From: a bacterium
GTDB taxonomy: Bacteria; UBA9089; JASEIO01
Assembly: GCA_030017475.1 (NCBI GenBank)
Contig: JASEIO010000009.1
Location: forward strand, 1-48,280
Length of the DNA stretch: 48,280 nucleotides
Direction: 5' to 3'
The translations under genes were made by a program, and so were the position numbers. Numbering within the stretch: position 1 is the stretch's first letter; each line of letters starts with the position of its first letter. Positions 5,353 through 44,925 of this stretch are shown here, one piece after another. Under the pieces are notes generated by a model, which saw nothing but the letters and a program-made list of their open reading frames with translations, had not been told where the DNA came from and searched no databases.

Positions 5353-5897
5353 AGAGACTCCTTTACTACCTGCTACTCACTTCCTACTTCGCCCTTCTCC
5401 TATTAGCTTGTACAAAAAAGGAGGAAGACATCTTGGCACAGGTAAATGATGAATGTATTACAAGAGATGAATTCCGTGAGATGTTACGTAATGTACCTAC
5501 AGAATATAGGGATATGGTTACGGATGTGGATGGTAAAGAGAGGCTGCTTTCTGAATGGATCATGGAAAGGTTATTGGTTCAGGAAGCGTATAGGCTAAAG
5601 TTAGATAAAAATCCACATATCATAAAAAAGATAGATGATTTTAAACAGGAACTACTGGCTAAAGAATTGATTAAGATTGCGGTCCTGAGTAAAGTAAGTT
5701 TAAATGAAAAGGAGATTAGGGATTACTATAATCTGCATAATGACATGTATCAAGAAGAATTTGAAGAGATAAAACAGGAAGTAGCAAAGGATGCCTTAAG
5801 GAAAAAACAGGATGTTGAATTTACGCGCCTTATAAAGAAACTGGAGAAGAAGGCAAAGATCCGAAAGAACCTGAAACTATTAAAAGGTATAAAATAG
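5349..5897 (+). CDS. SurA-N-like periplasmic chaperone lipoprotein
   Basis: The 182-residue product starts MKRLLYYLLLTSYFALLLLAC, a lipoprotein signal peptide with the lipobox LLAC (Cys 21). Next comes a SurA/PrsA N-terminal-like region (ILAQVNDECITRDEFREML and an LLSEWIMERLLVQEAYR helix). The usual parvulin PPIase domain is absent. The rest is a charged helical tail (IKQEVAKDALRKKQDVEF), as in the C-terminal helix of this family. It overlaps mfd by ATGA, so it is probably co-transcribed. It likely acts as a chaperone for exported proteins. Its 3' end overlaps the convergent PorV-like gene by 18 bases. Confidence 0.7.
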   Translation: MKRLLYYLLLTSYFALLLLACTKKEEDILAQVNDECITRDEFREMLRNVPTEYRDMVTDVDGKERLLSEWIMERLLVQEAYRLKLDKNPHIIKKIDDFKQELLAKELIKIAVLSKVSLNEKEIRDYYNLHNDMYQEEFEEIKQEVAKDALRKKQDVEFTRLIKKLEKKAKIRKNLKLLKGIK

Positions 5898-6770
5898 GGA
5901 TATGCGATGAGATAGTCCTAAGTCCTTGTTAATTAATGCATAATCAAATCCAAATGGTTCAAACCGAAAACCCAATCCTCCGGTATAATCCAAATCATCC
6001 AGTCCAGCCCTTAAGGCTAACCTTTGGTTAAATTGCCAAACCTCAATTCCTGTATGAAGTTTGATTGACTGATGTTCGCATCTCTCTAAATCTAAAGAGA
6101 TGGTAGAATCTTTAAGGAACTTAGTGTAAGAAAAACCTATCCTGATATTTAATGGAACCTCCTCCTCTCCTCCTTCTCTTTCTAACCTTGCCTTAACCAC
6201 ATTTTGGATATCTAAACCAAGCCTTAGGTGTTCTGTCGGTCTATATAATATGGATAGGTCTCCTCCAAACCCAACGGCATTAAGACCGTCGCATACCTTA
6301 TTTATAGATTTAAGGCTTCCTCCAAAAAATATCTTAGGATGTAATTTAAGGCTACTGGATATAAAAAAGGCATTCTCTTGAAAGGAAGATTCGTGTGGAC
6401 AAATTTCTCCTTCGCTATCCCTTTTTTCATATCCACCAGAGTAAAGTTGAACCACTCCTAAACCAAAATTTATAAAGGAGATTACAGAGTGGACATATGT
6501 TATCGCATCGTACCTTGCGCCTTCAAATAGAATGATATGCATGCAGGATAATTCTTTACGCTCAACCTGAGAGAGACCTGCAGGATTATAGTAAACGGAA
6601 CTCGAATCATTGGCTAAGCCAGTAAATGCCTTGCCCATTCCCAACGCCCTGGCACTTCCGCCTAAATCCAAAAAGCGGCAAGGTAATCCATAATCTCCTA
6701 TTACACCAAACGCAGTCTTAACAGAAGGGATTAAAATGATTATGCAAAATAAGATCAGAATCTTCTTCAT
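5880..6770 (-). CDS. PorV/PorQ-like outer-membrane beta-barrel protein
   Basis: The 296-residue product has an N-terminal signal peptide (MKKILILFCIIILIPSVKTA). It is followed by the typical PorV/UPF0164 block: FLDLGGSARALGMGKAFTGL, then DSSSVYYNPAGLS. The rest has alternating beta-strand patterns and ends in an aromatic residue (RISLFYTF), as outer-membrane barrels do. PorV works in type IX secretion as an attachment or shuttle protein; relatives of unknown role are common in candidate phyla. It is the last gene of the minus-strand pseudopilin cluster, 16 bases after a protein with a FlgD/T9SS-type C-terminal domain. Confidence 0.75.
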   Translation of the reverse strand: MKKILILFCIIILIPSVKTAFGVIGDYGLPCRFLDLGGSARALGMGKAFTGLANDSSSVYYNPAGLSQVERKELSCMHIILFEGARYDAITYVHSVISFINFGLGVVQLYSGGYEKRDSEGEICPHESSFQENAFFISSSLKLHPKIFFGGSLKSINKVCDGLNAVGFGGDLSILYRPTEHLRLGLDIQNVVKARLEREGGEEEVPLNIRIGFSYTKFLKDSTISLDLERCEHQSIKLHTGIEVWQFNQRLALRAGLDDLDYTGGLGFRFEPFGFDYALINKDLGLSHRISLFYTF

Positions 6771-6786
6771 AACTCTTAGATTTCGA

Positions 6787-8046
6787 CTACTTAACTAATA
6801 TCTTCCTTGTTTCTCTATCTCCCTTGGCTTCAATCACACAGATATATCCACCAAAAGATACAATTTCTCCTTTCTCATTCCTGCCATCCCATGGCACCTC
6901 ATTGACTACTGACCCTACTTCCACATCCTTACGCCAAACAAGATTACCTAATAGGTCATAGATCTTAACTATTGATCTACAATCCTCTTTTAATCTATAC
7001 TGGATAATAGTTGACTCTTTATTGGCTGAGAAGGGGTTTGGATAATTAAAGACATCCGTAATAAATGATTCCTTATCAGATTCCTTATCAGATTCCTTAT
7101 CACTTGGGGTTTCTACTAAGATAGCATAACCTATCTCATAATCATTTCCATCATAATAATGATAGGCAATAGAATTACCCCAAAGACAAGGACACATACC
7201 TTCTGTAACCTTTTCTTCCTTTTCACCATCCCAATACCATATCTCTCCTTCCCTTTCCCATGCAATCTTACCTTTATAAAGGGATGGGGCTACATCCTGG
7301 ATTGAATTATCGGTTATTTTATGTGTGTCTTTCCCATCCCAATAATAGATCTCATAATCTCCATCCTCATCTATACCACACCAAGTAACAGTATTTTCGT
7401 AAATGGATGGATTTTTATTCATGCCTTGACTTACCCCTTTTGATAAACATTTGGGATCTGGAGAGCGGAGATCATCTATATAATAAACCTCATAATCCTT
7501 CCCAATATAGGCAAGACTATTTCCATAGAGTGCTGGAGATTCTCCTGTTATGGAATCGATTGAATCTGGCTTTGGCTTTGGGGAATCACATTTACACAAG
7601 TGAATAAACTCTATCGGTTCGCCAGATTCACCCGGCCTACAACCAACCCATGAAATCCAATTCTCATAAATGGAAGGGCTATAATCACAATACTTCCTTT
7701 CAATTCTAATTTGTTTTCCATCCTTATAGTAATAGATATCATGTTCATTCAAGGTCTCTTTTACATATTTCGTCCATGCTATATGTCCATTATGTATAAC
7801 AGGCTCTCTATCCCAATGCCCTTTATCATTTGAGATATTCTCCTCCTCAAATCCACTCCATCTATAGATCTCCCAATCTATCCTCCCTTCTTCATCACGT
7901 TCTTTACGTTCCCAGACAATCTCTCCTTTAGAAAGAGAGGGATACTTATCATCTACATTATTATCTGTGACCCTCTTAATAACCCATCCACTTGAAAGAA
8001 CAGGGTTTGGTAAAAGAAGTAATACTAAAATCAGTAAGATTCTCAT
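6787..8046 (-). CDS. Exported beta-propeller protein with C-terminal FlgD/T9SS-type domain
   Basis: The start is ATG 8046, behind GAAAGAAGG; the frame can extend to 8073 but lacks a better site. The signal peptide MRILLILVLLLLPNPVLSSG is followed by TolB-like repeats carrying the recurring pattern 'xPSLYxGKIAWxxxGEIWYWDG' in several variants, which predicts a beta-propeller. A linker of three SDKE tandem units precedes a FlgD-Ig/T9SS type-A-like domain (VFNYPNPFS, KIYDLLGNLVWR, VPWDGRNEKGE, GGYICVIEA). That domain often acts as a sorting or assembly tail. The gene lies between the PilX-like gene and the PorV-like gene, so export through a related route is plausible. The ligand is unknown. Confidence 0.7.
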   Translation of the reverse strand: MRILLILVLLLLPNPVLSSGWVIKRVTDNNVDDKYPSLSKGEIVWERKERDEEGRIDWEIYRWSGFEEENISNDKGHWDREPVIHNGHIAWTKYVKETLNEHDIYYYKDGKQIRIERKYCDYSPSIYENWISWVGCRPGESGEPIEFIHLCKCDSPKPKPDSIDSITGESPALYGNSLAYIGKDYEVYYIDDLRSPDPKCLSKGVSQGMNKNPSIYENTVTWCGIDEDGDYEIYYWDGKDTHKITDNSIQDVAPSLYKGKIAWEREGEIWYWDGEKEEKVTEGMCPCLWGNSIAYHYYDGNDYEIGYAILVETPSDKESDKESDKESFITDVFNYPNPFSANKESTIIQYRLKEDCRSIVKIYDLLGNLVWRKDVEVGSVVNEVPWDGRNEKGEIVSFGGYICVIEAKGDRETRKILVK

Positions 8047-8092
8047 CACACACCTTCTTTCTCCCCAAATCAAGATATGCCTTTACTATCGT

Positions 8093-8428
8093 TTATTGCC
8101 CTATTATCTCTACCTCAATAGTTCCAGTAATAGTCTCCCCAGTATCTGTCCTAATCTCTACTTGAGGAAGGGTACGACGCCAATTAAGGTTACGAAGATC
8201 CATACCTGGAGTGATTCGATTTTGAGCCTCATTCAATCCATAACTTATTCCAGTCTCTGCCAGATAATAGGCCCTCTGTCTCAACCTTTCATGGGCTTCG
8301 TGTTTTGTTCTTGCCCTTAGAAAAAAGACAAGGCTTAAAGAGACTGCACTGAAGAGGATTAGGCCAATAATAGCCATAATAAGAACAGCCTGGCCTTTTT
8401 CATTTAGATGGAAAACCTTCTGTAACAT
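8093..8428 (-). CDS. PilX N-terminal-type pilus assembly protein
   Basis: The 111-residue product has a good GGAGGG upstream. After a short leader it reads NEKGQAVLIMAIIGLILFSA, then a long hydrophobic helix and the signature RLRQRAYYLAETGISYGLNEA, which matches the PilX N-terminal domain of minor type IV pilus proteins. Normally this domain is fused to a large exported C-terminal part. Here the product stops after a short beta-rich tail (ETITGTIEVEIIG). The giant protein encoded upstream in the same cluster has a PilX-like C-terminus, so the two together may replace one PilX. Confidence 0.7.
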   Translation of the reverse strand: MLQKVFHLNEKGQAVLIMAIIGLILFSAVSLSLVFFLRARTKHEAHERLRQRAYYLAETGISYGLNEAQNRITPGMDLRNLNWRRTLPQVEIRTDTGETITGTIEVEIIGQ

Positions 8429-8481: not shown

Positions 8482-9777
8482 TTATCTAACCCTTGGGTAG
8501 ATAACCGTCTGAAATTCTAAGGGTGCCTGCGGCTGATTGCCCATCCCTTTATTGAAAGGGATATATACCTCTACTCCCCTTTCGGTTTGGATAAATCGAG
8601 GTCTTGGTCTTAGATCTTCTGGATTCACCCTATTCCTATCTATCCTTTTTACAAAGCGCTCACTCCTAATCCCTCTCCACTCTCTATTCAATACATATCT
8701 TCCTGGATTATCTCTTGGATCAAATTCAGCAAATGTAAAAGAGCCTTCTCCTAACTCTCTATTATCATCATCTCCATCCTGAGCAGTGATTGTAAGTCTC
8801 TCTCTATCTAACTCTCCAACATAGAAATTGTCGAAATGAACTATAGCTGGGTAATCAGGAACTGCATCTCCTAAGCCAGAGACCCTGGCGATTAATTGGA
8901 TGGAATTGATCTCATCATCAAAAATACGTCCATCAACATCTCGGGTAGTACCTCTCAAGATAACCCCTCCTGTCCATTGATATCCAGGGCTAGAGAAGAC
9001 ATTGCCACCATCAAAACCAGTGTCTTGCTCAACCGTCCAGAATACAGGGAATAGATTTCCATCCAAGGTGTCATTGTTAGGAGTTCTATCATTTATGTTT
9101 GCAATCAGGCAAAGATGATGATCCCTTACTAAGTTCTGGTCATCAAGATCATTCTCATATGGAACACCGTCTCCGTCGTTATCTCTACCAATAGCGAAAT
9201 TAACCTCTTGAGTGAAAAACCTTATATCTGCAAAGCAGCCGAATATCACTGCTTTAGCATTCAGTCCGGAGATTGTTTCACTCCTCCATTCATACCTATT
9301 TTGATTAAGATTGGTTATTCCAATACATTGAGGGTCATGGACTGATAATATGTCACGTATGTCAGGTGGACTTTCTGCATTAGGGCCAAAATGAAAGAAA
9401 TTTGTTTGGGGTAACGGAGGATTATGCATATTATGGTTTTCATTGTGCCAATTAGGAGGTACAGGATAAGCTATACCTTCCCACATTGTCCAAGGATCTG
9501 GAGGAACATCTGGAAAAACCATTCCATCCCTCTCAGGCGTTACAAATCCAGGATTGGCTAATAGATTATCTATAGTTGTACGCCTTACCGTTTTCAAGTC
9601 CTCTATCAGCCTATCTTGAGCGTGGGTTGCCTCACGAGTGACTTCAAGTATATTCTTACTCTGCCACCATGTCCTTAGGGTATTGATAAAGAATACATTC
9701 AGTCCCACAACAATTAAGGCAATGATTGCAGCAGCGAATATCATCTCAACAAGGGTTAAACCCTTTTCTTTTTTCAT
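8482..9777 (-). CDS. PilW/GspJ-like minor pseudopilin (431 aa)
   Basis: The prepilin leader MKKEKG is followed by LTLVEMIFAAAIIALIVVGL, with Glu at position 5 of the mature protein, so PilD-type peptidase cleavage after the glycine is expected. The hydrophobic helix leads into a large globular domain rich in N, D and P, with several DDDG-like acidic loops (DNDGDGVPYENDLDDQN resembles a calcium-binding loop). It is longer than the average minor pilin. It lies 15 bases downstream of the PilV-like gene. It probably contributes to a pseudopilus tip. Confidence 0.75.
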   Translation of the reverse strand: MKKEKGLTLVEMIFAAAIIALIVVGLNVFFINTLRTWWQSKNILEVTREATHAQDRLIEDLKTVRRTTIDNLLANPGFVTPERDGMVFPDVPPDPWTMWEGIAYPVPPNWHNENHNMHNPPLPQTNFFHFGPNAESPPDIRDILSVHDPQCIGITNLNQNRYEWRSETISGLNAKAVIFGCFADIRFFTQEVNFAIGRDNDGDGVPYENDLDDQNLVRDHHLCLIANINDRTPNNDTLDGNLFPVFWTVEQDTGFDGGNVFSSPGYQWTGGVILRGTTRDVDGRIFDDEINSIQLIARVSGLGDAVPDYPAIVHFDNFYVGELDRERLTITAQDGDDDNRELGEGSFTFAEFDPRDNPGRYVLNREWRGIRSERFVKRIDRNRVNPEDLRPRPRFIQTERGVEVYIPFNKGMGNQPQAPLEFQTVIYPRVR

Positions 9778-9792
9778 AACAAACCCCTTTTA

Positions 9793-10458
9793 TTATGGAT
9801 AATATGCCCTGATCGTCGATAAAATATAGAACCTATCTCTTCCTCCTTCTCTCCAATTCACTCTGATATCTATCCTTTTGAAATTTGTAGGATCTTCTGT
9901 TTGGGTAAAGTCTCTATCATTTACATAAAAAACCAAGACCTCTCTTTCAAATGGCTGTGACCCAGGGATTTCCTTTCCGTATATATCATGGAAAGGACCT
10001 GTTTCACGAAAGCCGTTATAGTCATCTATATCATCAAGGGTCAAGCGATTATTGTGATCCTCTCCAGGCTCAGGTCCAAGATTAGTGGAATAACTACCTA
10101 CAACACCTCTTCTATTATGATCATCAGGTTGAGCTTTACCATTAAACTCATCCCATGCCCTTTGTGGAGAATACAAAACCCTTCTTGCATTTTCGCCTGC
10201 AACAGAGGTTACTACATCATTACCTGTATTTATATATCTTATAGAATTATTACATGGTCCCTGGATTATCTCCTCCATCAAATCCTGGGCAAATACCCTT
10301 GCTCGATTTTCAAGGCTTACATCCTCTGTCTTTGTTATTACATTTGCAAACATCCAAATAAGAGGTAATATCCCTCCGATAAGGATTAAAGAGGCAACCA
10401 TCAATTCAATTAGACTCACCCCTGAATTGGTGTTTAAAAAACAGGATAATCTTTTCAA
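9793..10458 (-). CDS. PilV-like minor pseudopilin
   Basis: I place the start at TTG 10458, preceded by AAGGGGTAAAGG, giving leader MKRLSCFLNTNSG and the cleavage site before VSLIELMVASLILIGGILPL. The longer frame up to 10509 would begin inside the -35 box of a good promoter (TTGACT), so it is unlikely. After the membrane helix comes a domain of about 180 residues ending in a beta hairpin (DRFYILSTIRAYYP). It fits PilV/GspI-type minor pilins that initiate pilus assembly together with PilW and PilX. Confidence 0.7.
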   Translation of the reverse strand: MKRLSCFLNTNSGVSLIELMVASLILIGGILPLIWMFANVITKTEDVSLENRARVFAQDLMEEIIQGPCNNSIRYINTGNDVVTSVAGENARRVLYSPQRAWDEFNGKAQPDDHNRRGVVGSYSTNLGPEPGEDHNNRLTLDDIDDYNGFRETGPFHDIYGKEIPGSQPFEREVLVFYVNDRDFTQTEDPTNFKRIDIRVNWREGGRDRFYILSTIRAYYP

Positions 10459-10480
10459 ACCTTTACCCCTTCTATTTCCT

Positions 10481-10509
10481 AAGATAGCATAAATTCTAAA
10501 AAAAGTCAA
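10481..10509 (-). promoter_or_regulatory. Internal promoter before the PilV-like gene
   Basis: On the minus strand TTGACT (10509-10504) and TATCTT (10486-10481) are separated by 17 bases. The site lies in the short gap after the giant gene. It would allow the pseudopilin, propeller and PorV genes to be expressed without the giant protein. Confidence 0.5.
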
Positions 10510-10527: not shown

Positions 10528-13500
10528 CTATTTTACATCCCAGCTTATTATCCTCTTTATCCTTCCATCTTGATCTACCTCAGCCCGTGCCTCGATCACT
10601 TTCCTATAGATTCTCCCTCCTTGCTCAACCGTTGCAGTTGACCTTATGAGTATTATCCTTCCATGGGCAACTGTTCCATGGAAAAGAAGAGATCGGGCTA
10701 AGTTTGGTGCTGCTAATCCAGGTTCATTATCCGAATCTTCAACCGTTATCATGCCGTATACCCTTTCTCCATCATGTCCAGCAAATACTGTGGCTGGGAT
10801 GTTGAATCTTGCTTCTCCACCTGGGTCTACTGGAACAACAAGATTCACAAATGGTGATGGTACTGGTAAGATATTCCCTGGTGCCAAAGGATTAAAGAGG
10901 ATATGGTTTGGATTCTCGACATCGTCACAGAATGGCCTCCATGATAGGTATAGCCTCACACACTTTATTCCATCTATTTGAATATTTTGCCCACCACAAT
11001 TAGGACACCTTCTCGGAGGTCTTCCAATTCCAGTAGTTCTACAGTCTCTACATCTCCATTCTACATCATCGTCTGGAGTGTCATGAGTATCCTCATCCAT
11101 TACCACAACCCTGATTGTATTTTGGGCATTGGAGTTAAATGTGAAGTTAGTAGATATATTGACAAAACCTTGGTAATATCTATTGTTCCTTATATCGTCT
11201 CCATCTGCAAAGGCCCTTGCACCCCTCGCAGGTTGGTTTCTAAAGTTATTGCCATGTGGGTCTATGTTGAATGTAATATCTCTATCTTCAGGGGAATCCG
11301 AATTTACTATAAAATTTAAAGGTAAGTCAACAAAATCTGGCTGCATAGCGTCGTCATCCCTTATCTCAAACTCGAACCATTCTACATCTTCTTGTACTTT
11401 AGTCAATCCGTTTCTACCTACCCAAAAATCGATCCCTAGGTTATCATCGTGGATCCTGTATCTATATCTAAAGGTATCTCCTCTATGTAATCTTATACCA
11501 TCCGTCTGATCAAAGACCGTCCTTTCTTCATCTCTAAAGTTAAAATGAGGGTCGTTCAATGGATCGATTCCTATGAAGTGAACTCTACCACCTTCCATTT
11601 TGCTTTCTTTCCTCCAGTATGTGAACCGGCAAAGGGCCTCATTCGTTCCAGCTTCCCCTCTCTCATCTTCAGTATCTTTATCATTAAACTGAAGCTCACC
11701 CCTCCTTATAGACCTCTCTCTTTCAACCTCATATTCAAGCCATACCTTTCCAGATGGAATTGTGTGATAGCTTGATCGGAGCCTTAGGAGAGGAGGTACA
11801 TCATTTCTACCATCAAAGTCGATCCATCCATCAAAAATGAAGAATCCATCTGCATCACGTCTTATATTGTCTTGATATTCAGCTCCTCCAAGATCATGGT
11901 TCAGTTCCTGAACACACATTCCTTCAGGATTCTTTACATTTGCGTAATTTATTGATGTATCAATATTTGGGGTATACATAGGGTCTTCTGCCTCATATTT
12001 TGTATAGTAAGAGCCATCCCTTTCTACTATCTTATATTCCCTAGTTACTGGATCATATTCTGCACCAGAGAAGCATTTTATTGGTCGTCCAGGTTTTATC
12101 CTAAAGTCCATAATCCCTGGAATGGGAGGTTGTGGATTTGTATCCTCCTCTGCCCACTGCCATCCTTCTCCATCGATATATACACATGTTCTCCATCTTC
12201 CATTCCATTCATCAAGAGGTGGCATCCAATCAGTAAATACGTCATGTCCCTCGTATTCTCCTTCGCCACCATATCCACGGATATTCTCCATATCAACAAG
12301 GTGGATGTACTTGGATATAACATAACACCAGATAAACTTATTGTTAGGGCATTCGCAAAGGTCTTCCTTAGTATTTGCCTTGTATGGTCCATTGTAGAAT
12401 CTATTTCCTACCCCATGAAGGTATATATAGTCAGTTGCATACAATCCTCCTTTTATAATACTTGAGCCGATATGACTACTATCAAAACTATTTGCAAACA
12501 GAATGCTTCCTTCTCTTATCTCTGTTCCTGCCTTATTTGGTATTTCACTATAATCATATTCCCCATAAAATGCTATATTCTTCATACTCCTCACAACCCC
12601 ATTAAAGACTGTCCTATTTGGTTTATCGCCTTTAGTCTCACCGAATATAACATCACCTCCTGCATGGATAAAGGCCTTATTCATCTCTATTTTATTGTCG
12701 AAAGGCTTGATTCTTACTATTCCATTTGTTATCAATTCGCCACTAAAATCTAAATCCCCATCTGAACCATCTCCACAAAAGTAGATGGCATTATCTCCCC
12801 TATAATGGGAATGCATTGAGCAGTTTTTGTAATGGCTAATATCTCTATTTGTTGAATCTTTCCAATCACTAAGCTCTATCTTTCCTCTACAGACGATTTT
12901 TACATTCTTTAATTTGTGTAACCCTTCTTTCTTTAGATAGCAATAATCCTTATGGACATAGATATAGGTTCCATCAATCTTTAAATCTCCAGATCCTATA
13001 ATATTTATATACTTATCTCCTCTCATGTAAGGACCAGTAAATCTGAAATTGCCTATATTCTCTGCAGAGATATAATCTCCACTATAGATCGAACCTTTTA
13101 TATCGCAATCCATCTCCTTATTTCTGAAATATATATATCCTTTTGAATATATATTTCCAGAGACCTCAAGGTCTACTCTCTTTTCGCTCTCAATGTCGAA
13201 GTTTATATTACCTCTTGTATACATATCACCTGTTATAATCTGCCTTTTATCAGCTATTTGAGAGGTAAAGGAAATATTTATCCCATTCTTTGCAATTAAG
13301 TAACTTCCTGTTAGCTCGATCCTTTCTGATGTAATCTCTATCTTGTCATCTCTTACGTAAATTATTCCCCGTGCTATTAGTTCTGCTATTGGTTCTTTTT
13401 TACCTATACCCATGTCATCACATCTAAGATCTCCATCTAAGGTGAGGTATCTACCATCCTTTACGCTAAAACATCCGCCGCAATGGATTGGACCATTTAT

Positions 13501-16500
13501 CTTAATATCTGTATATGGATCAAGGTCAAATTTTAAATGTCCTCCTTTTCCTTTTGTAAACAATGCAACTGGAAAACCAAGGAAGTTATCTAATTTCACA
13601 TCTTCAGAGATCACGATCTTATTCTTTGCAACCAATGCACCAATTCCTACAATCTCTGCCCTTTTTTTTATATGAATATTTGCTTTTGAATAAACAATCC
13701 CTTCTATTTTAACCTTTTCACCCTCCTTTATGTTGATCGTACCGCTATAATATCCACTTATTGTATCTCCATTACCAAACGACCCTCCCCTCTTCTCTCC
13801 AAGTTCTCTTGCCATTTCTTCATAATCAGAAAGGTCTGTTGGATAGGTTATGTCCATACCATCCTCTGCATAATTAATCATCTTATCTATCCTATCAGAA
13901 ACAAACGCCTTATAATCAGATAATAGAGGATCTGGCTCCTCTAAATATCCACCATCTGACTCTAACTCAATCTCCTTTTCTCTCACTATCTGGGTACCAG
14001 AATTATCTTGGTCTATGTCTGGATAAGGAATCTCCACATGATTATCGTCTATTATAGCAAGACTACTTTTATTAAGCGAATCTGGTTTAGGCTCCATCCA
14101 ATCTTTAGCTTCAAGGTATGCAATCCTTTCTCTATCTTCTGGGACTTCTGGTGGATTTTTTGGCTCCCATCCAACATATGTATCTTCATCGATTTTCATA
14201 CCGCGATTTGAATGGAGTCTTGCCCAATAGATGTAAAGGTGTTTTGATTTTGATTTTGTAATAAGTAGATCATCTTTTGTTGACCAGCCAGTGAAATACT
14301 TCTCCTGGACAACATCCTTAAATCCAGTGCATGCAATACTCCCTTTTTGAGAGATCGCCTCTCCGAGGTAGGTACCATTACTACTCACTATGCTAACATC
14401 CTCTTTTCCGTGGATTGTCCCTTCAAATATATATGATCCACTCTTAACCTGAATCGAGCTATTTGATCTTATCTCTCCACGGAGATATCCTAAATCTACA
14501 TTTTCTAAACTCACCTTCCCTTCACTATACAACCTTCCCTGGTTCATCTCAAACCTACCGCCTGATGTACCTCTCTTAACATTTATCTCTCCTTTACTCC
14601 ATATCCCCCCTTTTAATAGTACGGATTGACCATCTAAGTGGATTGTAGCATCTCCTCCGGAATAGATATTTGCCTTGATTTTGCAAAATCTATTGGATGC
14701 CTCAGGCTTGATCTCTATTTTACTACCACTTCTTATCTCACCAGATATTAGAGGGATAGACATACCATATCTATCGCCTGCACCTGTACCAATAGTCAAA
14801 CCACGAGAATGGTCTCCAGAATGGATAGATACATCTCGAAATGTTAAAGAGCCTTTTGATGTTCCATTGATAAACAACATGTAAGTCCCTGACCGAAGCT
14901 TTGTGCCTCTAAATTCTACATCGGGTCCATCTATACAAATACCAATACCTTCTTTAGCATGCATCTTTCCCATTATAACTGTCTTACCCCCTACCAATCT
15001 AAAATCATTATCAGGATACGCACCTCCTATATAGCTACCTGCTCTCATATCAGCCCAGAGCACAGGGATCTCTACTATATTATAGCTACCTTGCCTTGTA
15101 ACTATACAACCACCTGCATGCATCTTACATCTAAGGAAGCTAATCTTTCCACCACTTGTTCCTCTACCCATAGATATATCCCCTCCTGCTATCAAATCTC
15201 CCCTTATTATTACGTGAGTATTACTGGAATCAACATATATACAAATATCTCCTTGTGCATTGACATCTGCATCCATATGGGTCCGAATGGGTGCGTTTGA
15301 GCCACAATTACCAAAGGATAGATAAACCGTACCGGATGAATATATCTTTCCACGGATCTTTAAAACACGGCTCGCATAACAATTCCTAAAAGATACATTA
15401 CCATTTTCATTTACAAGCAGTGCATCTACATCTATAATCGCTTGCTTATTTGGCTTTATGTCTAAATCCTTTGAACCAGATGGTGAAGCCGTCCTCCACT
15501 CTCCTCTTATCTTACATAATCCGCATCCTCCAACTCCAACAGAGATATTACCATTGGTATATCCTATTGTATCAAGGACTGTGCCTTCTCCACCATCAAA
15601 CTCTATACCATCTTTCGAAAACAATCCAGCTTTTCTATGAGGTGGATCTATCTTAATCGCAACAGCCTCCCTTGCAGAGATACTACCTTCAGAGATAATT
15701 GCCCCTTCTCCTACTGCACCTACTGTAAATCCATCCTTATTCCATTTTCCAGCCTTCTTAAACATAACATAATCTACATCTTTAAAATATAAGACATCCT
15801 TCTCCAAGACGATTGGACCCTGAATGAACGCATGCCCTCCTTCGAAGTAAATCAAACCATCCGGAGATCCACCTCCAAACTTACCTGGTACATCACCGTT
15901 TTTTGACATCCTATAAAAGTTGTATCCTGGAAAGTCTGAGGCATCATCATAATCACTTAAGGCTGTATCATAAGTTGGACGAGGTATATCCGCTGGAGAT
16001 TCTGGAGAAAGTGGTAACTCTGGTTTATGATGACCTACAACATATCTTGGTGGCTTAGGAATTCCTGCGTATTGCTTAGGATCCTTAGGATCGTCAAATG
16101 GTGGTATTATTATAACCCTATCAGCCCCATCTATTCTTTTATATTTATTTCCTGGATTTCCTGCACCACAGTTTACTCTCCCACATGCAGTTATATCTCC
16201 GTATACATTAGTTCCAGTAACCACTGCATTTCCATTCGAATGCATATTCCCCACAGATTGATTGCTGAAAGAGACATTAAGTCCCTGCTCTCCAAGGAAT
16301 CCATAGGTAAATATTGGGGCTTGCCAGATCTTCTTTGGATTCTTAACACGAAGCTGTATATATGGAGAATCTTCGGTTGGATCGCCTGGGGATTCACCTA
16401 CTTCAAAATAGACTCTTGCGTGTGCACCACCCTCTGGTGGTGCGGTAGTTTTATCATTAGGTATAACCTTCCCCCTAAATTCCTTTGCCTCGTTGATAGT

Positions 16501-16602
16501 CCACTCATCTCCTGAATCAGGTGTTTGGTTATAAACCTCTGCACAAAAGGAAGGCATAGTAAAAAGAACCATTAAGAAACTCAATATAAGAATCCTTTTC
16601 AT
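10528..16602 (-). CDS. Giant exported beta-helix protein with PilX-like C-terminus (2024 aa)
   Basis: The start is ATG 16602, behind AAGGGGTGA; a GTG at 16611 overlaps that site and is less likely. The signal peptide is MKRILILSFLMVLFTMPSFC. From about residue 245 to 820, and again from about 930 to 1420, the chain is made of short repeats alternating 'GxIxSxGxIxI' with Gly/Asn turns (SGGDATIHLDG, SKGEINVKRGTSGG), a pattern typical of parallel beta-helices or bactofilin-like folds. A Pro/Asp-rich linker separates the blocks. Residues about 1500-1980 look like Ig or beta-sandwich domains. They include a four-cysteine zinc-ribbon-like CRDC...CPNCGG near 1850-1870. The end (RIILIRSTATV..., KVIEARAEVDQDGRI, SWDVK) resembles the C-terminus of PilX-type pilus proteins. 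It is first in the pseudopilin cluster. It is probably a surface fibre, adhesin or pilus-tip protein; no catalytic motif was seen. Confidence 0.7.
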   Translation of the reverse strand: MKRILILSFLMVLFTMPSFCAEVYNQTPDSGDEWTINEAKEFRGKVIPNDKTTAPPEGGAHARVYFEVGESPGDPTEDSPYIQLRVKNPKKIWQAPIFTYGFLGEQGLNVSFSNQSVGNMHSNGNAVVTGTNVYGDITACGRVNCGAGNPGNKYKRIDGADRVIIIPPFDDPKDPKQYAGIPKPPRYVVGHHKPELPLSPESPADIPRPTYDTALSDYDDASDFPGYNFYRMSKNGDVPGKFGGGSPDGLIYFEGGHAFIQGPIVLEKDVLYFKDVDYVMFKKAGKWNKDGFTVGAVGEGAIISEGSISAREAVAIKIDPPHRKAGLFSKDGIEFDGGEGTVLDTIGYTNGNISVGVGGCGLCKIRGEWRTASPSGSKDLDIKPNKQAIIDVDALLVNENGNVSFRNCYASRVLKIRGKIYSSGTVYLSFGNCGSNAPIRTHMDADVNAQGDICIYVDSSNTHVIIRGDLIAGGDISMGRGTSGGKISFLRCKMHAGGCIVTRQGSYNIVEIPVLWADMRAGSYIGGAYPDNDFRLVGGKTVIMGKMHAKEGIGICIDGPDVEFRGTKLRSGTYMLFINGTSKGSLTFRDVSIHSGDHSRGLTIGTGAGDRYGMSIPLISGEIRSGSKIEIKPEASNRFCKIKANIYSGGDATIHLDGQSVLLKGGIWSKGEINVKRGTSGGRFEMNQGRLYSEGKVSLENVDLGYLRGEIRSNSSIQVKSGSYIFEGTIHGKEDVSIVSSNGTYLGEAISQKGSIACTGFKDVVQEKYFTGWSTKDDLLITKSKSKHLYIYWARLHSNRGMKIDEDTYVGWEPKNPPEVPEDRERIAYLEAKDWMEPKPDSLNKSSLAIIDDNHVEIPYPDIDQDNSGTQIVREKEIELESDGGYLEEPDPLLSDYKAFVSDRIDKMINYAEDGMDITYPTDLSDYEEMARELGEKRGGSFGNGDTISGYYSGTINIKEGEKVKIEGIVYSKANIHIKKRAEIVGIGALVAKNKIVISEDVKLDNFLGFPVALFTKGKGGHLKFDLDPYTDIKINGPIHCGGCFSVKDGRYLTLDGDLRCDDMGIGKKEPIAELIARGIIYVRDDKIEITSERIELTGSYLIAKNGINISFTSQIADKRQIITGDMYTRGNINFDIESEKRVDLEVSGNIYSKGYIYFRNKEMDCDIKGSIYSGDYISAENIGNFRFTGPYMRGDKYINIIGSGDLKIDGTYIYVHKDYCYLKKEGLHKLKNVKIVCRGKIELSDWKDSTNRDISHYKNCSMHSHYRGDNAIYFCGDGSDGDLDFSGELITNGIVRIKPFDNKIEMNKAFIHAGGDVIFGETKGDKPNRTVFNGVVRSMKNIAFYGEYDYSEIPNKAGTEIREGSILFANSFDSSHIGSSIIKGGLYATDYIYLHGVGNRFYNGPYKANTKEDLCECPNNKFIWCYVISKYIHLVDMENIRGYGGEGEYEGHDVFTDWMPPLDEWNGRWRTCVYIDGEGWQWAEEDTNPQPPIPGIMDFRIKPGRPIKCFSGAEYDPVTREYKIVERDGSYYTKYEAEDPMYTPNIDTSINYANVKNPEGMCVQELNHDLGGAEYQDNIRRDADGFFIFDGWIDFDGRNDVPPLLRLRSSYHTIPSGKVWLEYEVERERSIRRGELQFNDKDTEDERGEAGTNEALCRFTYWRKESKMEGGRVHFIGIDPLNDPHFNFRDEERTVFDQTDGIRLHRGDTFRYRYRIHDDNLGIDFWVGRNGLTKVQEDVEWFEFEIRDDDAMQPDFVDLPLNFIVNSDSPEDRDITFNIDPHGNNFRNQPARGARAFADGDDIRNNRYYQGFVNISTNFTFNSNAQNTIRVVVMDEDTHDTPDDDVEWRCRDCRTTGIGRPPRRCPNCGGQNIQIDGIKCVRLYLSWRPFCDDVENPNHILFNPLAPGNILPVPSPFVNLVVPVDPGGEARFNIPATVFAGHDGERVYGMITVEDSDNEPGLAAPNLARSLLFHGTVAHGRIILIRSTATVEQGGRIYRKVIEARAEVDQDGRIKRIISWDVK

Positions 16603-16699
16603 TTCTATCACCCCTTCTTGTTTGATCCATTTCCACTAACAAGCTTTTGCAAATATCGTGCCAAAATCGAGATTCTTCCTAACATCTTACAAATTATAA

Positions 16700-16727: not shown

Positions 16728-16739
16728 CTCGCCTCTCGA

Positions 16740-16774
16740 GTAAAGATTTTTTACTCAAGGTAAAAAATCTTTAC
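16740..16774. repeat. Perfect 15-bp inverted repeat
   Basis: GTAAAGATTTTTTAC at 16740-16754 and its exact reverse complement at 16760-16774 are separated by TCAAG. The T-runs inside the arms would let it act as a bidirectional terminator or a hairpin. It could also be a palindromic operator. Confidence 0.65.
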
Positions 16775-16913
16775 TTTGTTAAGTGACCCCTACACATTCT
16801 CTCTTTCTCACCGTTTCCTTGTAAATTCGGGGTGGTCCATTTAGTGTGGGGGAAGACAAATAAAGCCACCTGATTGAAAAGGCGAACAAGAGATGCCTTT
16901 GAAAAATGCCTTG

Positions 16914-17117
16914 TTACCATTTCCCCTCCTTATACCTATTTTTTAATAGCCATTCATCTATCTTATCCTTCTTGAACCTCCAAGACTTACCCACCTTAAA
17001 TGCAGGAATCTTGCCTTTCTGGCACATTCTATATATACTTATTTCATGTAACCGAAGATATTTTGCTACCTCTTTCACAGTCATAATAGTGGGTCTTCTT
17101 TCCTTTAGCTCATCCAT
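16914..17117 (-). CDS. Excisionase/MerR-type helix-turn-helix protein
   Basis: The 67-residue product contains the HTH_17/excisionase-family signature: TVKEVAKYLRLHEISIYRMC, then GKIPAFKVGKSWRFKKDKID and EWL. This small winged-helix fold binds DNA, and stand-alone members occur as regulators or phage/ICE directionality factors. No integrase is nearby, so a regulatory role is more likely. The Shine-Dalgarno AAGGAGGTGATTG is nearly fully complementary to the 16S rRNA tail. A promoter lies at 17170-17198. Confidence 0.8.
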   Translation of the reverse strand: MDELKERRPTIMTVKEVAKYLRLHEISIYRMCQKGKIPAFKVGKSWRFKKDKIDEWLLKNRYKEGKW

Positions 17118-17362: not shown

Positions 17363-18214
17363 TTGAGAAATCGTTTGGAGAAGGTTAAATATACAATAGA
17401 GGAAGAAGTTAAGTACTGGTTTTTGAGCCTGAACAGGCCAGATACAAGGTCCATTTTTGCCTTTGTATTTACTGTAGGTTTGTTTTCTGGACTTACGAAA
17501 GAGAGATTTAAGAAGGTACATCGAAAGGTTATAAATAGGCTAAAAAGAAGATATAATGATCTTAGGGACGAAGATTTGGAGTTTTTAAGAAAAAGCACCT
17601 CCTCTTACATTACCTCGAAAGATCCTATTGATTTTATTTCGCTAAGTTATCTTGAAGGTGTAAGGGAAGGATTTAGAGAACTTAAAGAAGATTTTATAAT
17701 AATTTTGCCTATCCTCAGAAGATTGTCTAAGGACAAAGATGCGGTTATTCGACGATCTGCCGCATATTCTTTAAGATTTATAGAGAAAAAGGAATTAAAA
17801 AAAAAGAAGGTCTTACCCATCTTAAAAAGGTTGTCTAAAGATAAAAGCTTAGAGGTTAGAGAGGTTGTAGCATATTGTTTAAGAGATATGGATATAGAAA
17901 TCCCAAACAAGGTTCTACCAGTCCTGCATAGGTTATCCAAAGATGAAGATTTAGAGGTCAGGGAGCTTGTAGCAGATTCTTTAAGAATTATACTTAAAGA
18001 AAACATAGATGAAGTTTTACCGAACTTAAGATTTTGGACAAAGGATAAAGATTGGAATGTACGGGAGGCTGTAGCATATTCTTTAAGAGATATAGGAAAA
18101 GAAATGCCAGATGAGGTGTTACCAATCTTACGGGACCTAGCCAATGATGAAACCTTTTTTGTGCGAGATGTAGCTCGGGATTCTTTAATGAGGTTTAAAG
18201 GTGTTACAAGATGA
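17363..18214 (+). CDS. HEAT-repeat protein
   Basis: The product is up to 283 residues. An in-frame stop at 17357-17359 and the lack of any in-frame ATG before about 17890 force a TTG start at 17363 or 17375. After an N-terminal helical region come about five HEAT/PBS-lyase-like repeats of about 30 residues. Each carries a variant of VLPILKRLSKDKSLEVREVVA then YSLRDI, from about residue 110 to the end. Such solenoids bind proteins or nucleic acids, and the partner is unknown here. It is followed after a short gap by a 57-residue gene. Confidence 0.75.
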   Translation: MRNRLEKVKYTIEEEVKYWFLSLNRPDTRSIFAFVFTVGLFSGLTKERFKKVHRKVINRLKRRYNDLRDEDLEFLRKSTSSYITSKDPIDFISLSYLEGVREGFRELKEDFIIILPILRRLSKDKDAVIRRSAAYSLRFIEKKELKKKKVLPILKRLSKDKSLEVREVVAYCLRDMDIEIPNKVLPVLHRLSKDEDLEVRELVADSLRIILKENIDEVLPNLRFWTKDKDWNVREAVAYSLRDIGKEMPDEVLPILRDLANDETFFVRDVARDSLMRFKGVTR

Positions 18215-26297: not shown

Positions 26298-26353
26298 TGT
26301 GAAGAAAGGTTCTTAATTACGAGTAATTCTTGAATCTGAGGGTAGGTTTAAAA

Positions 26354-28153
26354 ATGCAGAAGCTAAATGAGGGGCTATTGTCTTGTAATAAGTGGATTAT
26401 GGATGAGATGTTACAAGATAAGAATCCTGAACTTAAGAGGCAAGTAAGGATCTTAAAAAAACAATTAGGGCAATATCGTACACCAAAATTTATTATAGAT
26501 TATATACTTGAACAAATGGAATTAAGTCCAGATAAAAAGGTGCTTGATCCTGCCTGTGGAACTGGTGACTTTCTCTTGCGGGCCTATGATATATTGAAAG
26601 CGAAGTACGAAAGACAAGGTGTTCAAGCCGCCGAGATTCATAGTAGAATACTTAAAAATAATTTATATGGTGTAGACATCAATCCCTTCATTGCTGAATT
26701 GGCTATAATAAACTTGGTGATGAAGGATCTTTCTACCCCAGTAGAGAAGGTCAATATTATTGATGCCAATAGCTTAAGGAGATATGAATTGGAGTTTGAC
26801 TACGGAAAGGAAAATTCAACAATAAGAAACAGAGAACCTATTTCAAGACACGCCTTTTTTCGCCAGAGATTTGATGTGATTATAGGAAATCCACCTTACC
26901 TTGATGGAAGGAATGTTTGCAAAATAGATCATAGGTATTACAAAAAGGTCTTTAGAACAGCTCAAGGAAAACTTAATACCTTCTCACTTTTTATAGAAAG
27001 GGGTTTAGAGATGTTAAAAAGTGGAGGGAGGCTTGGTTTTATAGTGCCAAGTACAATGCTAAGGAATTCTCGGTATTGGGCGGTGAGACTTGAATGTTTA
27101 GATCGAGCAAGAATTCATAAACTTACCTACCTTGACAATTTACCTTTTAAAGATGCTGTGGTTACGGGATTGATAGTTATATTAGAAAAGGTGGATAATA
27201 AAAGGTTAAAAACTCATTGGAAGGTAAAAACAGCTATAGTACGGAAAAATGAGGAGCTGAGAAGTGGATTGATTAATTATTCCTTTATCGATCAAAGGTT
27301 TTTCGAAACTAATAATAAATACAGGTTCTATATCTCCTTATCCAATTTTGACCTTAATCTATTAAAAAAGATTAAAGGGAGTGGAATTCCACTGCGCGAA
27401 ATTTGTGAGGTTAAGGATGGAATAAGTACAGGATTCAAGCCATTTCGAGATATATTACTTGGCTATGAAGCAGATTCTAATTTTGTAGCTTTGAATGGAG
27501 AGACAGAGCGATTCGATCCAAAAATCCATAAGAAGGTTATTGATGGCCAAGAATTTAAACGATACTCTGAAATCAATTGGAAAGGTCGTTTTATCAAATA
27601 TGATAAAAGGATAGAGCAAGACCCTAAGCCTAAAGAAGGAAGGCCTTTTAATTGTCAATTAAGAGATGAATATATCTTTCTCCGGAAGAAGATTATAACC
27701 CGGCAAACTGCGGATAGGTTAATCGGGACTTTGGATACCTGCCAATTTTATACGAGAAATTCAATACATAATACATTCCTCCATCCTTCCCAAGAGAGGA
27801 ATTTTGAATTGGAATATATCCTTGGCATAATAAATAGCCGTCTTATGACCTGGTACTATCAAAAACTCACCCAAGAGGCGTCGCGTGTCTTTCCTCAAGT
27901 CCATATTATGGATCTGAAAGAATTACCTATAAAACGAGTGGATTTGGAAGAACAAAGGAAATTTGTGGATTTGGTAAATAGGATAATAAAACTTAACAAG
28001 GAATTAACCCTTAACCACACACACAAAAAAAAGGAGATTCAAAGGAAGATTGAGGCTATTGATAGAATTATAGATAAGAAAATATATGATTTATACGGAC
28101 TAACACGGAATGAACGAAGATTGATAGAAGAATCTTGCAAGAACCTAAAATAA
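26354..28153 (+). CDS. N6-adenine DNA methyltransferase (Eco57I/TaqI-like), solitary
   Basis: The start is ATG 26354; a TTG at 26330 is an alternative. The product is about 599 residues. The N-terminal helices are followed by LGQYRTPKFIIDYIL, SAM-binding motif I VLDPACGTGDFLLRAYD, ELAIINLVM, and the catalytic motif IV FDVIIGNPPYLDG. A TaqI-like C-terminal target-recognition region follows (SIHNTFLHP, YILGIINSRLMTWYYQK, FPQVHIMDLKELPI). No nuclease motif was seen, and no restriction enzyme gene adjoins it. It therefore looks like an orphan methyltransferase or a type IIG relative without the nuclease part. Confidence 0.85.
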   Translation: MQKLNEGLLSCNKWIMDEMLQDKNPELKRQVRILKKQLGQYRTPKFIIDYILEQMELSPDKKVLDPACGTGDFLLRAYDILKAKYERQGVQAAEIHSRILKNNLYGVDINPFIAELAIINLVMKDLSTPVEKVNIIDANSLRRYELEFDYGKENSTIRNREPISRHAFFRQRFDVIIGNPPYLDGRNVCKIDHRYYKKVFRTAQGKLNTFSLFIERGLEMLKSGGRLGFIVPSTMLRNSRYWAVRLECLDRARIHKLTYLDNLPFKDAVVTGLIVILEKVDNKRLKTHWKVKTAIVRKNEELRSGLINYSFIDQRFFETNNKYRFYISLSNFDLNLLKKIKGSGIPLREICEVKDGISTGFKPFRDILLGYEADSNFVALNGETERFDPKIHKKVIDGQEFKRYSEINWKGRFIKYDKRIEQDPKPKEGRPFNCQLRDEYIFLRKKIITRQTADRLIGTLDTCQFYTRNSIHNTFLHPSQERNFELEYILGIINSRLMTWYYQKLTQEASRVFPQVHIMDLKELPIKRVDLEEQRKFVDLVNRIIKLNKELTLNHTHKKKEIQRKIEAIDRIIDKKIYDLYGLTRNERRLIEESCKNLK

Positions 28154-43254: not shown

Positions 43255-44925
43255 ATGCCCGTTCCAAAAAGAGAAAGGATAGGAGATATGTTAGTTAAGG
43301 CCAAAATTATAGAAGAGGAGCAATTACAGAAGGCCTTAGAGGTTCAAAAGAAGACTAATAAAAGATTAGGAAGGATATTGATAGATTTAGGTTTTGTTGG
43401 GGAAAGTGTTATTATAGATTTCTTAGGATCCCAATTAGGGATACCTTACATTAATTTAGGTAAAATAAAAAAGATCGATCCTGAAGTCTTGCGGTCTGTT
43501 CCAGAGTTTATTGCAAGACGTCATCTATTGATTCCTATATCTAAAGAAGGAAATACTATAACTATAGCTATGGCTGATCCAGTGGATATCCTAGCCATCG
43601 ATGATATAAAATTTCTGATCGGTGAGTGTGATGTAAATCCAGTGGTTGCCTCTGAGAGAGAGGTAACGGCTGCAATCGAGGAATTTTATGGAAGATCGAA
43701 GGCAATTATGGAGATCTTAGAAGGGGCTATTATGGGAGAAGAGGGGGTTGAGACGAGAGAAAGGATGTCTGCGGCTAATCTGATTACCCATTTTCTATCT
43801 GAAGCCATTAAAGCCCGTGCCTCGGACATCCATATTGAACCTTATGAAAAGGAGTTAAGAACTCGATATAGAATAGATGGAATGTTGTATGAGGTTGCTT
43901 CACCCCCCAAAGAAATTCAAAAGGCTATTGTTTCCCAAATAAAGATTATGGCCCATTTAGACGTTACTGAACGCAGGCTTCCTCAGGAAGGAGGATGTAA
44001 GGTAAGGGTAGATGATCGAGAGATAGATTTACAGATTTCTATAACTCCCACAGTATATGGAGAAAAGACGGTAATGAAGATTTTAACTCCAATAGCCGGA
44101 TCCTTAGATATAACACGCCTTGGCTTTGAACAAGAGGCTCTTGCTTTATATCAAAAATGTTTTCTCTCATCAAGTGGGTTTATTTTATTTACTGGGCCTA
44201 AGACCAGTGGAAAAACCACTACTATATATACTACCTTAACCGCTATCAATTCTTCAGAGAAAAATATTATGACTGTTGAAAATCCAATAAAATCCCTTTT
44301 ACCCGGGATAAATCAACAGCAAATCAATTTAGATATCGGCTTGACATTCTCGAGAGGATTAAAATCTTTCTTATCTCAAGATTCAGACGTCATTATGGTT
44401 GGAGGGATAGTAGATAAAGAAACAGCAAGATTAGCTATAAATGCTGCTTTAACTGGACATTTAGTATTTGGTATTATGCATTCAAATGATTCTTTGGAGG
44501 CATTAACTCGTCTAATTAATATGGGGATAGAGCCATTTTTAATTGCCTCAACTGTAAAATTATGTATTACTCAAAGATTAGCTCGAATGATTTGTGAAGA
44601 ATGCAAAGAACCTTATGAAGTCACCTACACTGCCTTAAAGGATATTGGCATAAAGATAAAAGGGAAAGGAAAAGAAAAGGTTATCCTACATAGAGGAGTT
44701 GGTTGCAAAAGCTGTAATAATATTGGATATAAGGGAAGAACAGGGATATTTGAAGTAATGGAAATAAATGAAAAGATTCAAGAGGCGATAGTTAATCGAG
44801 CACCAAGAAAAGATATCAAAGAGGCGGCAATAGCTTCTGGAATGATTACTTTACAAGAATCAGCACTAAGAAAGGTTTTAGCTGGTATAATTACTGTGGA
44901 AGAACTACTACGGATCACCTTATAG
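43255..44925 (+). CDS. Degenerate GspE/PilB-family ATPase
   Basis: The 556-residue product has an N-terminal MshEN domain (about 1-130) and a secretion ATPase domain with ASDIHIEPYEKELRTRYRID and the Cys-rich CEECKEPYE...CKSCNNIGYKGRTGIFE zinc module. The P-loop is GPKTSGKTT (about 314-322), where GPTGSGKTT is usual. The Asp box reads VENPIK instead of VEDPxE. The Walker B reads DVIMVGGIVDKETA where family members have DVIMVGEIRDxETA. The catalytic Glu is therefore Gly at residue 384, and the following Arg is Val. LRQDPD has become LSQDSD. ATP hydrolysis is probably weak or lost. It may act as a partner subunit or a cyclic-nucleotide sensor through MshEN. Confidence 0.85.
   Translation: MPVPKRERIGDMLVKAKIIEEEQLQKALEVQKKTNKRLGRILIDLGFVGESVIIDFLGSQLGIPYINLGKIKKIDPEVLRSVPEFIARRHLLIPISKEGNTITIAMADPVDILAIDDIKFLIGECDVNPVVASEREVTAAIEEFYGRSKAIMEILEGAIMGEEGVETRERMSAANLITHFLSEAIKARASDIHIEPYEKELRTRYRIDGMLYEVASPPKEIQKAIVSQIKIMAHLDVTERRLPQEGGCKVRVDDREIDLQISITPTVYGEKTVMKILTPIAGSLDITRLGFEQEALALYQKCFLSSSGFILFTGPKTSGKTTTIYTTLTAINSSEKNIMTVENPIKSLLPGINQQQINLDIGLTFSRGLKSFLSQDSDVIMVGGIVDKETARLAINAALTGHLVFGIMHSNDSLEALTRLINMGIEPFLIASTVKLCITQRLARMICEECKEPYEVTYTALKDIGIKIKGKGKEKVILHRGVGCKSCNNIGYKGRTGIFEVMEINEKIQEAIVNRAPRKDIKEAAIASGMITLQESALRKVLAGIITVEELLRITL

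Follow-up and report, generated by a model that had tools for sequence, protein, structure and literature searches.

A 2024-residue exported, putative beta-helix protein encoded ahead of three minor pilins, a candidate tip payload of a type IV pilus

The window, by which we mean the whole 48,280-nt stretch of bacterial DNA that was analysed, encodes on its minus strand an exported protein of 2024 residues which, in our assessment, is probably carried as payload on the tip of a retractable type IVa pilus and takes the role of PilY1 there. The strongest evidence that this protein and the PilV-type minor pilin encoded beside it work together comes from a related genome, in which the two window genes correspond to a single polypeptide chain. 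We infer for the protein a location at the pilus tip, a part in adhesion, donation of a strand to a minor pilin and control by sigma-54, and we lay out the observations behind each of these below.

The reading frame, its operon and the upstream region

The following features were assigned, from the upstream region to the last gene of the cluster:

16739..16775, no strand: perfect inverted repeat, 16+16 nt with a 5-nt loop, 76-112 nt upstream of the sigma-54 site
16648..16663, minus: candidate sigma-54 -24/-12 promoter, TGGCACGATATTTGCA; sole exact match in the 1.64 Mb genome
10528..16602, minus: exported beta-helix protein, 2024 aa, candidate type IV pilus tip payload; uninterrupted ORF
16543..16602, minus: Sec-type signal peptide, MKRILILSFLMVLFTMPSFCA; sequence form and hydropathy
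14383..16320, minus: beta-helix block 1, aa ~95-740; motif sites and AF2 model, with aa 63-371 homologous to the PilV-fused beta-helix of the related genome G008
12403..13785, minus: second Gly-rich repeat block, aa ~940-1400; motif sites at aa 1149-1390
10531..12285, minus: C-terminal region, aa ~1440-2024, probably all beta; AF2 pLDDT 34
10972..11088, minus: zinc-ribbon-like CxxC...CPxC element, aa ~1840-1877; weak matches to several rubredoxin/Zn-ribbon families, all below cut-off
10531..10566, minus: terminal Trp strand ...KRIISWDVK, proposed docking strand; form common to PilX/GspK and some PilY1 C-termini
9793..10509, minus: PilV-type minor pilin, start uncertain; TIGR02523 1e-7, below cut-off
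8482..9777, minus: PilW-type minor pilin, N_methyl, 431 aa; PF07963 above cut-off
8093..8428, minus: short PilX-type minor pilin, 111 aa; PF14341 2e-4, below cut-off
6787..8073, minus: exported protein with T9SS type A/FlgD-Ig C-terminal domain; TIGR04183 above cut-off
5880..6770, minus: PorV/PorQ-family outer-membrane barrel; NF033709 2.4e-30, above cut-off

The frame of the large protein runs from an ATG at 16602, which is preceded by the Shine-Dalgarno sequence AAGAAGGGG, down to 10528; an alternative GTG start 9 nt upstream of the ATG would give 2027 aa instead of 2024 aa. The reading frame reported in a preliminary description of this DNA is real and free of interruption, and the signal peptide proposed there is borne out as well, in that the protein begins with MKRILILSFLMVLFTMPSFCA-E, a segment built like a Sec signal peptide and marking the peak of the hydropathy profile. 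Searches of Pfam, NCBIfam, PHROGs and the PDB sequences with the 2024-residue protein returned zero matches. The protein contains 34 cysteines, and its zinc-ribbon-like CxxC...CPxC element, lying within a Sec-exported chain, is odd for an extracytoplasmic domain.

Two long blocks of Gly-rich repeats had been described, and both motif enrichment and layout agree with them. Seven copies of the motif G-x-h-x-[AS]-x-[GDEKN]-x-h-x-h were counted, whereas 1000 shuffles yielded a mean of 0.05 and a maximum of 1; for a looser form the count is 13, with a shuffled mean of 1.2 and maximum of 6, and the sites cluster at aa ~118-700 and ~1149-1390. Tandem repeats at the DNA level are negligible. The AF2 model of block 1, computed from a two-row alignment, has a mean pLDDT of 48, reaches block means of 69-87 at aa 619-718, and displays a regular run of short solenoid-like strands across most of the block. 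Comparison of this model with the PDB using Foldseek gave nothing at E<=0.001; the 19 weak matches are mostly to adhesins or enzymes with a beta-helix, among them EspC, HxuA, antigen 43, tapirins and FfIBP, the last being an ice-binding protein and the closest relative of the ComZ solenoid (PMC6561018). Judging by the model, block 1 is likely to be a beta-solenoid. The earlier claim of a beta-helix agrees with the predicted solenoid-like strands, which have moderate confidence at aa 619-718 only, but not with any significant match in the PDB. The sandwich-like domains that had been placed later in the chain are unconfirmed, as alignment-free AF2 prediction of the last 578 residues was uninformative (pLDDT 34).

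The large gene is the first of its operon and is followed on the same strand by the PilV-, PilW- and PilX-type genes at gaps of 18, 15 and 53 nt, in agreement with the preliminary description. The window PilX has no Glu5 (mature QAVLI..., from the sequence), a residue whose absence is typical of PilX/GspK (PMC7541494), and it has no terminal Trp strand. Gaps of 19 and 16 nt separate PilX from the T9SS-type gene and the latter from the PorV-family gene, and this pair, which the preliminary description passed over, probably belongs to the minor-pilin operon.

The candidate promoter TGGCACGATATTTGCA lies ~45 nt ahead of the start codon of the large gene. Exact matches of this kind are expected by chance at ~0.02 per 48-kb window and roughly 0.7 per genome, and the case for sigma-54 therefore rests on the position of the site and on the sigma-54 gene, which the window genome carries. 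Ahead of the other pilus operons, sigma-54-like sites did not exceed background. Going by the sequence, expression of the operon is probably driven from this promoter, and the inverted repeat is a possible activator site; activator sites usually sit at such a distance upstream of sigma-54 promoters. Further upstream on the same strand is a 67-aa ORF of the excisionase-type helix-turn-helix family (16914-17117; TIGR01764 above cut-off), which also comes close to the NF047737 MAD1 defence model without reaching its cut-off, and a plus-strand gene for a HEAT-repeat protein (17363-18214) adjoins the operon.

A pilin fusion and the payload slot across the phylum

Relatives were sought in 386 genomes, comprising 19 of the phylum, including the window genome (G000), and 367 others. 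A profile of the N-terminal domain of the large protein matched G000 and G008 only, i.e., two of the 19 phylum genomes and none of the others, consistent with the lineage-specificity proposed earlier. A two-row profile scan of a contig collection gave no matches, but it missed even G008, which is itself in that collection, and is not evidence of absence. In G008, the metagenome-assembled genome 'bacterium isolate Yes70-06' (JASEGW01), the homologue, 848 aa long, is a class III prepilin whose N_methyl match exceeds the cut-off; its aa 5-167 resemble the window PilV (blastp 5e-9, phmmer 6e-12) and its aa 143-423 the 2024-residue protein (5e-8 pairwise and about 2e-7 against a small database), at an identity of 22-25% and in this one relative only. 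The beta-helix is joined to PilV in this chain, not to PilX, and PilW, a 127-aa PilX and other genes come after the fusion gene.

In other genomes of the phylum, different payloads occupy the minor-pilin operon. The gene order is FimU-PilV-PilW-PilX-PilY1 in G012 and G014 and FimU-PilW-PilX-PilY1, with no PilV identified, in G007 and G010, while in G003 PilV-PilW-PilX is followed by a PilC-like beta-propeller protein. Four genomes (G013, G016, G017 and G018) encode a payload-bearing PilX of ~830-920 aa followed by PilV and PilW, and the payload in G013 consists of Kelch repeats and DUF7305; this unusual 924-aa PilX-type minor pilin (L032 7533-10307) is predicted to combine a beta-propeller with a beta-helix. 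PilY1 occurs in 7 of the 19 genomes, with two of these matches (G003, G010) below the family cut-off, and was found in none of G000, G008, G013 and G016-G018; PF05567 is absent from the entire G000 genome. No genome of the 19 has two payload types, in small numbers and in counts that ignore kinship. Two further loci deserve mention in their own right, namely a 2189-aa frame in G012 (L030 10155-16724) with a weak DUF7305 match and a C-terminus like a T9SS sorting domain, and three tandem similar genes of ~123 aa beside a short PilX-like gene in G002 (L062 8000-9706).

The C-terminus of the large protein had been called PilX-like. What holds of this is a short terminal Trp-strand motif; local alignment with nine PilX/GspK segments was not significant (best Z 2.8). 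The window protein has a terminal [ILV]-x0-2-W strand, as do seven of seven payload-bearing PilX or GspK examined in the phylum and three of six PilY1, compared with ~5 of 248 other ORFs (about 2%), for a motif picked after viewing the sequence and a background tallied by hand. Most short PilX of the phylum are without this strand, including those paired with PilY1, so its absence from the window PilX is not special. The PilY1 C-terminus has been predicted to join PilX by beta-strand addition (PMC11046646, PMC13190605). Given this prediction and the common Trp-strand motif, donation of a strand by the large protein to its short PilX is plausible by analogy; the idea does not apply to G008, whose fusion protein lacks the motif.

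Proposed role and alternative explanations

The window genome encodes the type IVa carrier set of PilB, PilT, PilC, secretin and pilins. PilT scores 482 bits with TIGR01420 against a cut-off of 319 and PilB 692 bits against 676, and PilC, two secretins and two pilins on contig 17 are present. An apparent 24,276-aa reading frame around one of the secretins was rejected as an artefact of masked N. Since a retractable type IVa pilus is present, a separate pseudopilus is not needed, and we take the ordinary retractable pilus as the simplest carrier. The pseudopilus and the undescribed surface system of the preliminary description give way to this standard machinery, and we found no evidence for its surface fibre. 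At a distance from the main pilus cluster, the window encodes a second PilB/GspE-type ATPase, which has an MshE-type domain that binds c-di-GMP (43255-44925; NF053729 above cut-off), and another gene of the window encodes a 607-aa protein that by eye is like the Eco57I/TaqI-type adenine methyltransferase of a restriction-modification system (26330-28153).

In the mechanism that we propose, the large protein would be exported by Sec and would meet the PilV/PilW/PilX priming complex in the periplasm, from where the growing pilus end would push it out through the secretin. The long beta-helix would then extend from the tip and bind a surface or polymer while the pilus is pulled back by PilT. Docking would probably occur via the C-terminal end, whose final Trp strand is like the one that closes PilX/GspK and some PilY1, and the very short PilX, which is without a Trp strand, may accept a strand from the large protein. 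The earlier suggestion of a tip protein assembled with minor pilins is in keeping with the beta-helix-PilV fusion of G008 and with the PilY1 or PilX-borne payload found in the same operon elsewhere. A broader scheme, which we put forward tentatively and consider doubtful, would make the tip of this phylum modular, with PilY1, a PilX-borne Kelch/beta-helix or a PilV-borne or free beta-helix as payload; in the window, a ComZ-like pilin would have been split, and a stalk-only PilX would be completed by the donated strand.

Having its own signal peptide and no pilin stalk, the large protein could instead be cargo or a cell-surface adhesin that is released or anchored in the envelope, with the minor pilins forming a secretion pseudopilus or merely sharing the operon. 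Two tapirin structures and a number of secreted beta-helix adhesins among the weak Foldseek matches, and the occurrence of GspK-type pseudopilins in the phylum, point the same way. We nevertheless regard this explanation as unlikely in view of the G008 chain, in which the homologue is covalently part of a class III prepilin, the PilY1 in the corresponding operon of relatives and the PilT of the genome. T9SS/PorV-type surface display by way of the two downstream genes, with the pilins incidental, is very unlikely: the sorting-domain and PorV-family genes do come next at short gaps, and a similar pair is known from G016, but the large protein carries no type A or B sorting domain in Pfam or NCBIfam searches, and neither G008 nor the PilY1 clusters examined have such a pair after their pilins. 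The pair in G016 lies 1-3 kb past the minor pilins (L166 8702-10607). Most improbable of all is a polysaccharide-export apparatus like the cyanobacterial HpsA-HpsBCD, which shares the layout of a large protein with three pilin-like proteins (PMC6495340) and to which the window PilW gives a weak HpsC match (E 0.037, far below cut-off), but the operon encodes no glycosyltransferases and the large protein has no HpsA match.

Relation to known tip proteins

The reading of the large protein as a tip payload invites comparison with PilY1, which forms a tip complex with minor pilins (PMC7541494). Both PilY1 (PF05567) and the window protein are big Sec-exported non-pilins without a prepilin stalk and are encoded with PilV, PilW and PilX. 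However, the window protein has putative beta-helix blocks in place of the C-terminal seven-bladed beta-propeller of PF05567, and its gene is first in the operon, not last. ComZ of Thermus thermophilus is a tip pilin with a beta-solenoid inserted before the last pilin strand (PMC6561018), and the predicted solenoid of the window protein, at its proposed tip location, would resemble it in this respect. In contrast to ComZ, which is a single prepilin, the window protein has a Sec signal, its PilX is separate and it has no PDB sequence match; the class III prepilin leader and pilin helix that ComZ carries on the solenoid chain are absent from the window protein but present in its G008 relative. 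The DUF7305 (PF23981) PilX proteins likewise place a beta-helix-like payload in a minor-pilin operon of the same phylum, in the order PilX-PilV-PilW, although the payload there is covalently part of PilX. Membership of the window protein in DUF7305 was considered and rejected, with no match by Pfam or a home-made profile and an hhalign E of 0.09 at a probability of <1%.

Tapirins are cellulose-binding proteins encoded beside the pilus genes of Caldicellulosiruptor and are thought to be released or anchored in the envelope. As secreted beta-helix adhesins they are like the window protein in the role that we propose for it, the Foldseek matches to PDB 4wa0 and 6n2b (E 3 and 8) being not significant, and we know of no fusion of a tapirin with a minor pilin. 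HpsA of hormogonia is a large membrane protein encoded with the pseudopilins HpsB-D (PMC6495340), whereas the window protein does not match it and the window operon is without polysaccharide genes.

Altogether, the comparison suggests that type IV pili end in an adhesive module which is exchangeable and can switch between a free and a pilin-fused form within one phylum. Comparing the payloads of this phylum is a natural way to ask how a giant non-pilin protein comes to be attached to the pilus tip, and a candidate tip protein can now be named for organisms in which PilY1 searches come up empty. By its sequence, the 2024-residue protein is not a member of PilY1 (no propeller), ComZ (no pilin stalk) or DUF7305 (no match), and we infer for it a role like that of PilY1 or ComZ at the tip of a pilus machine that is itself of known kind.
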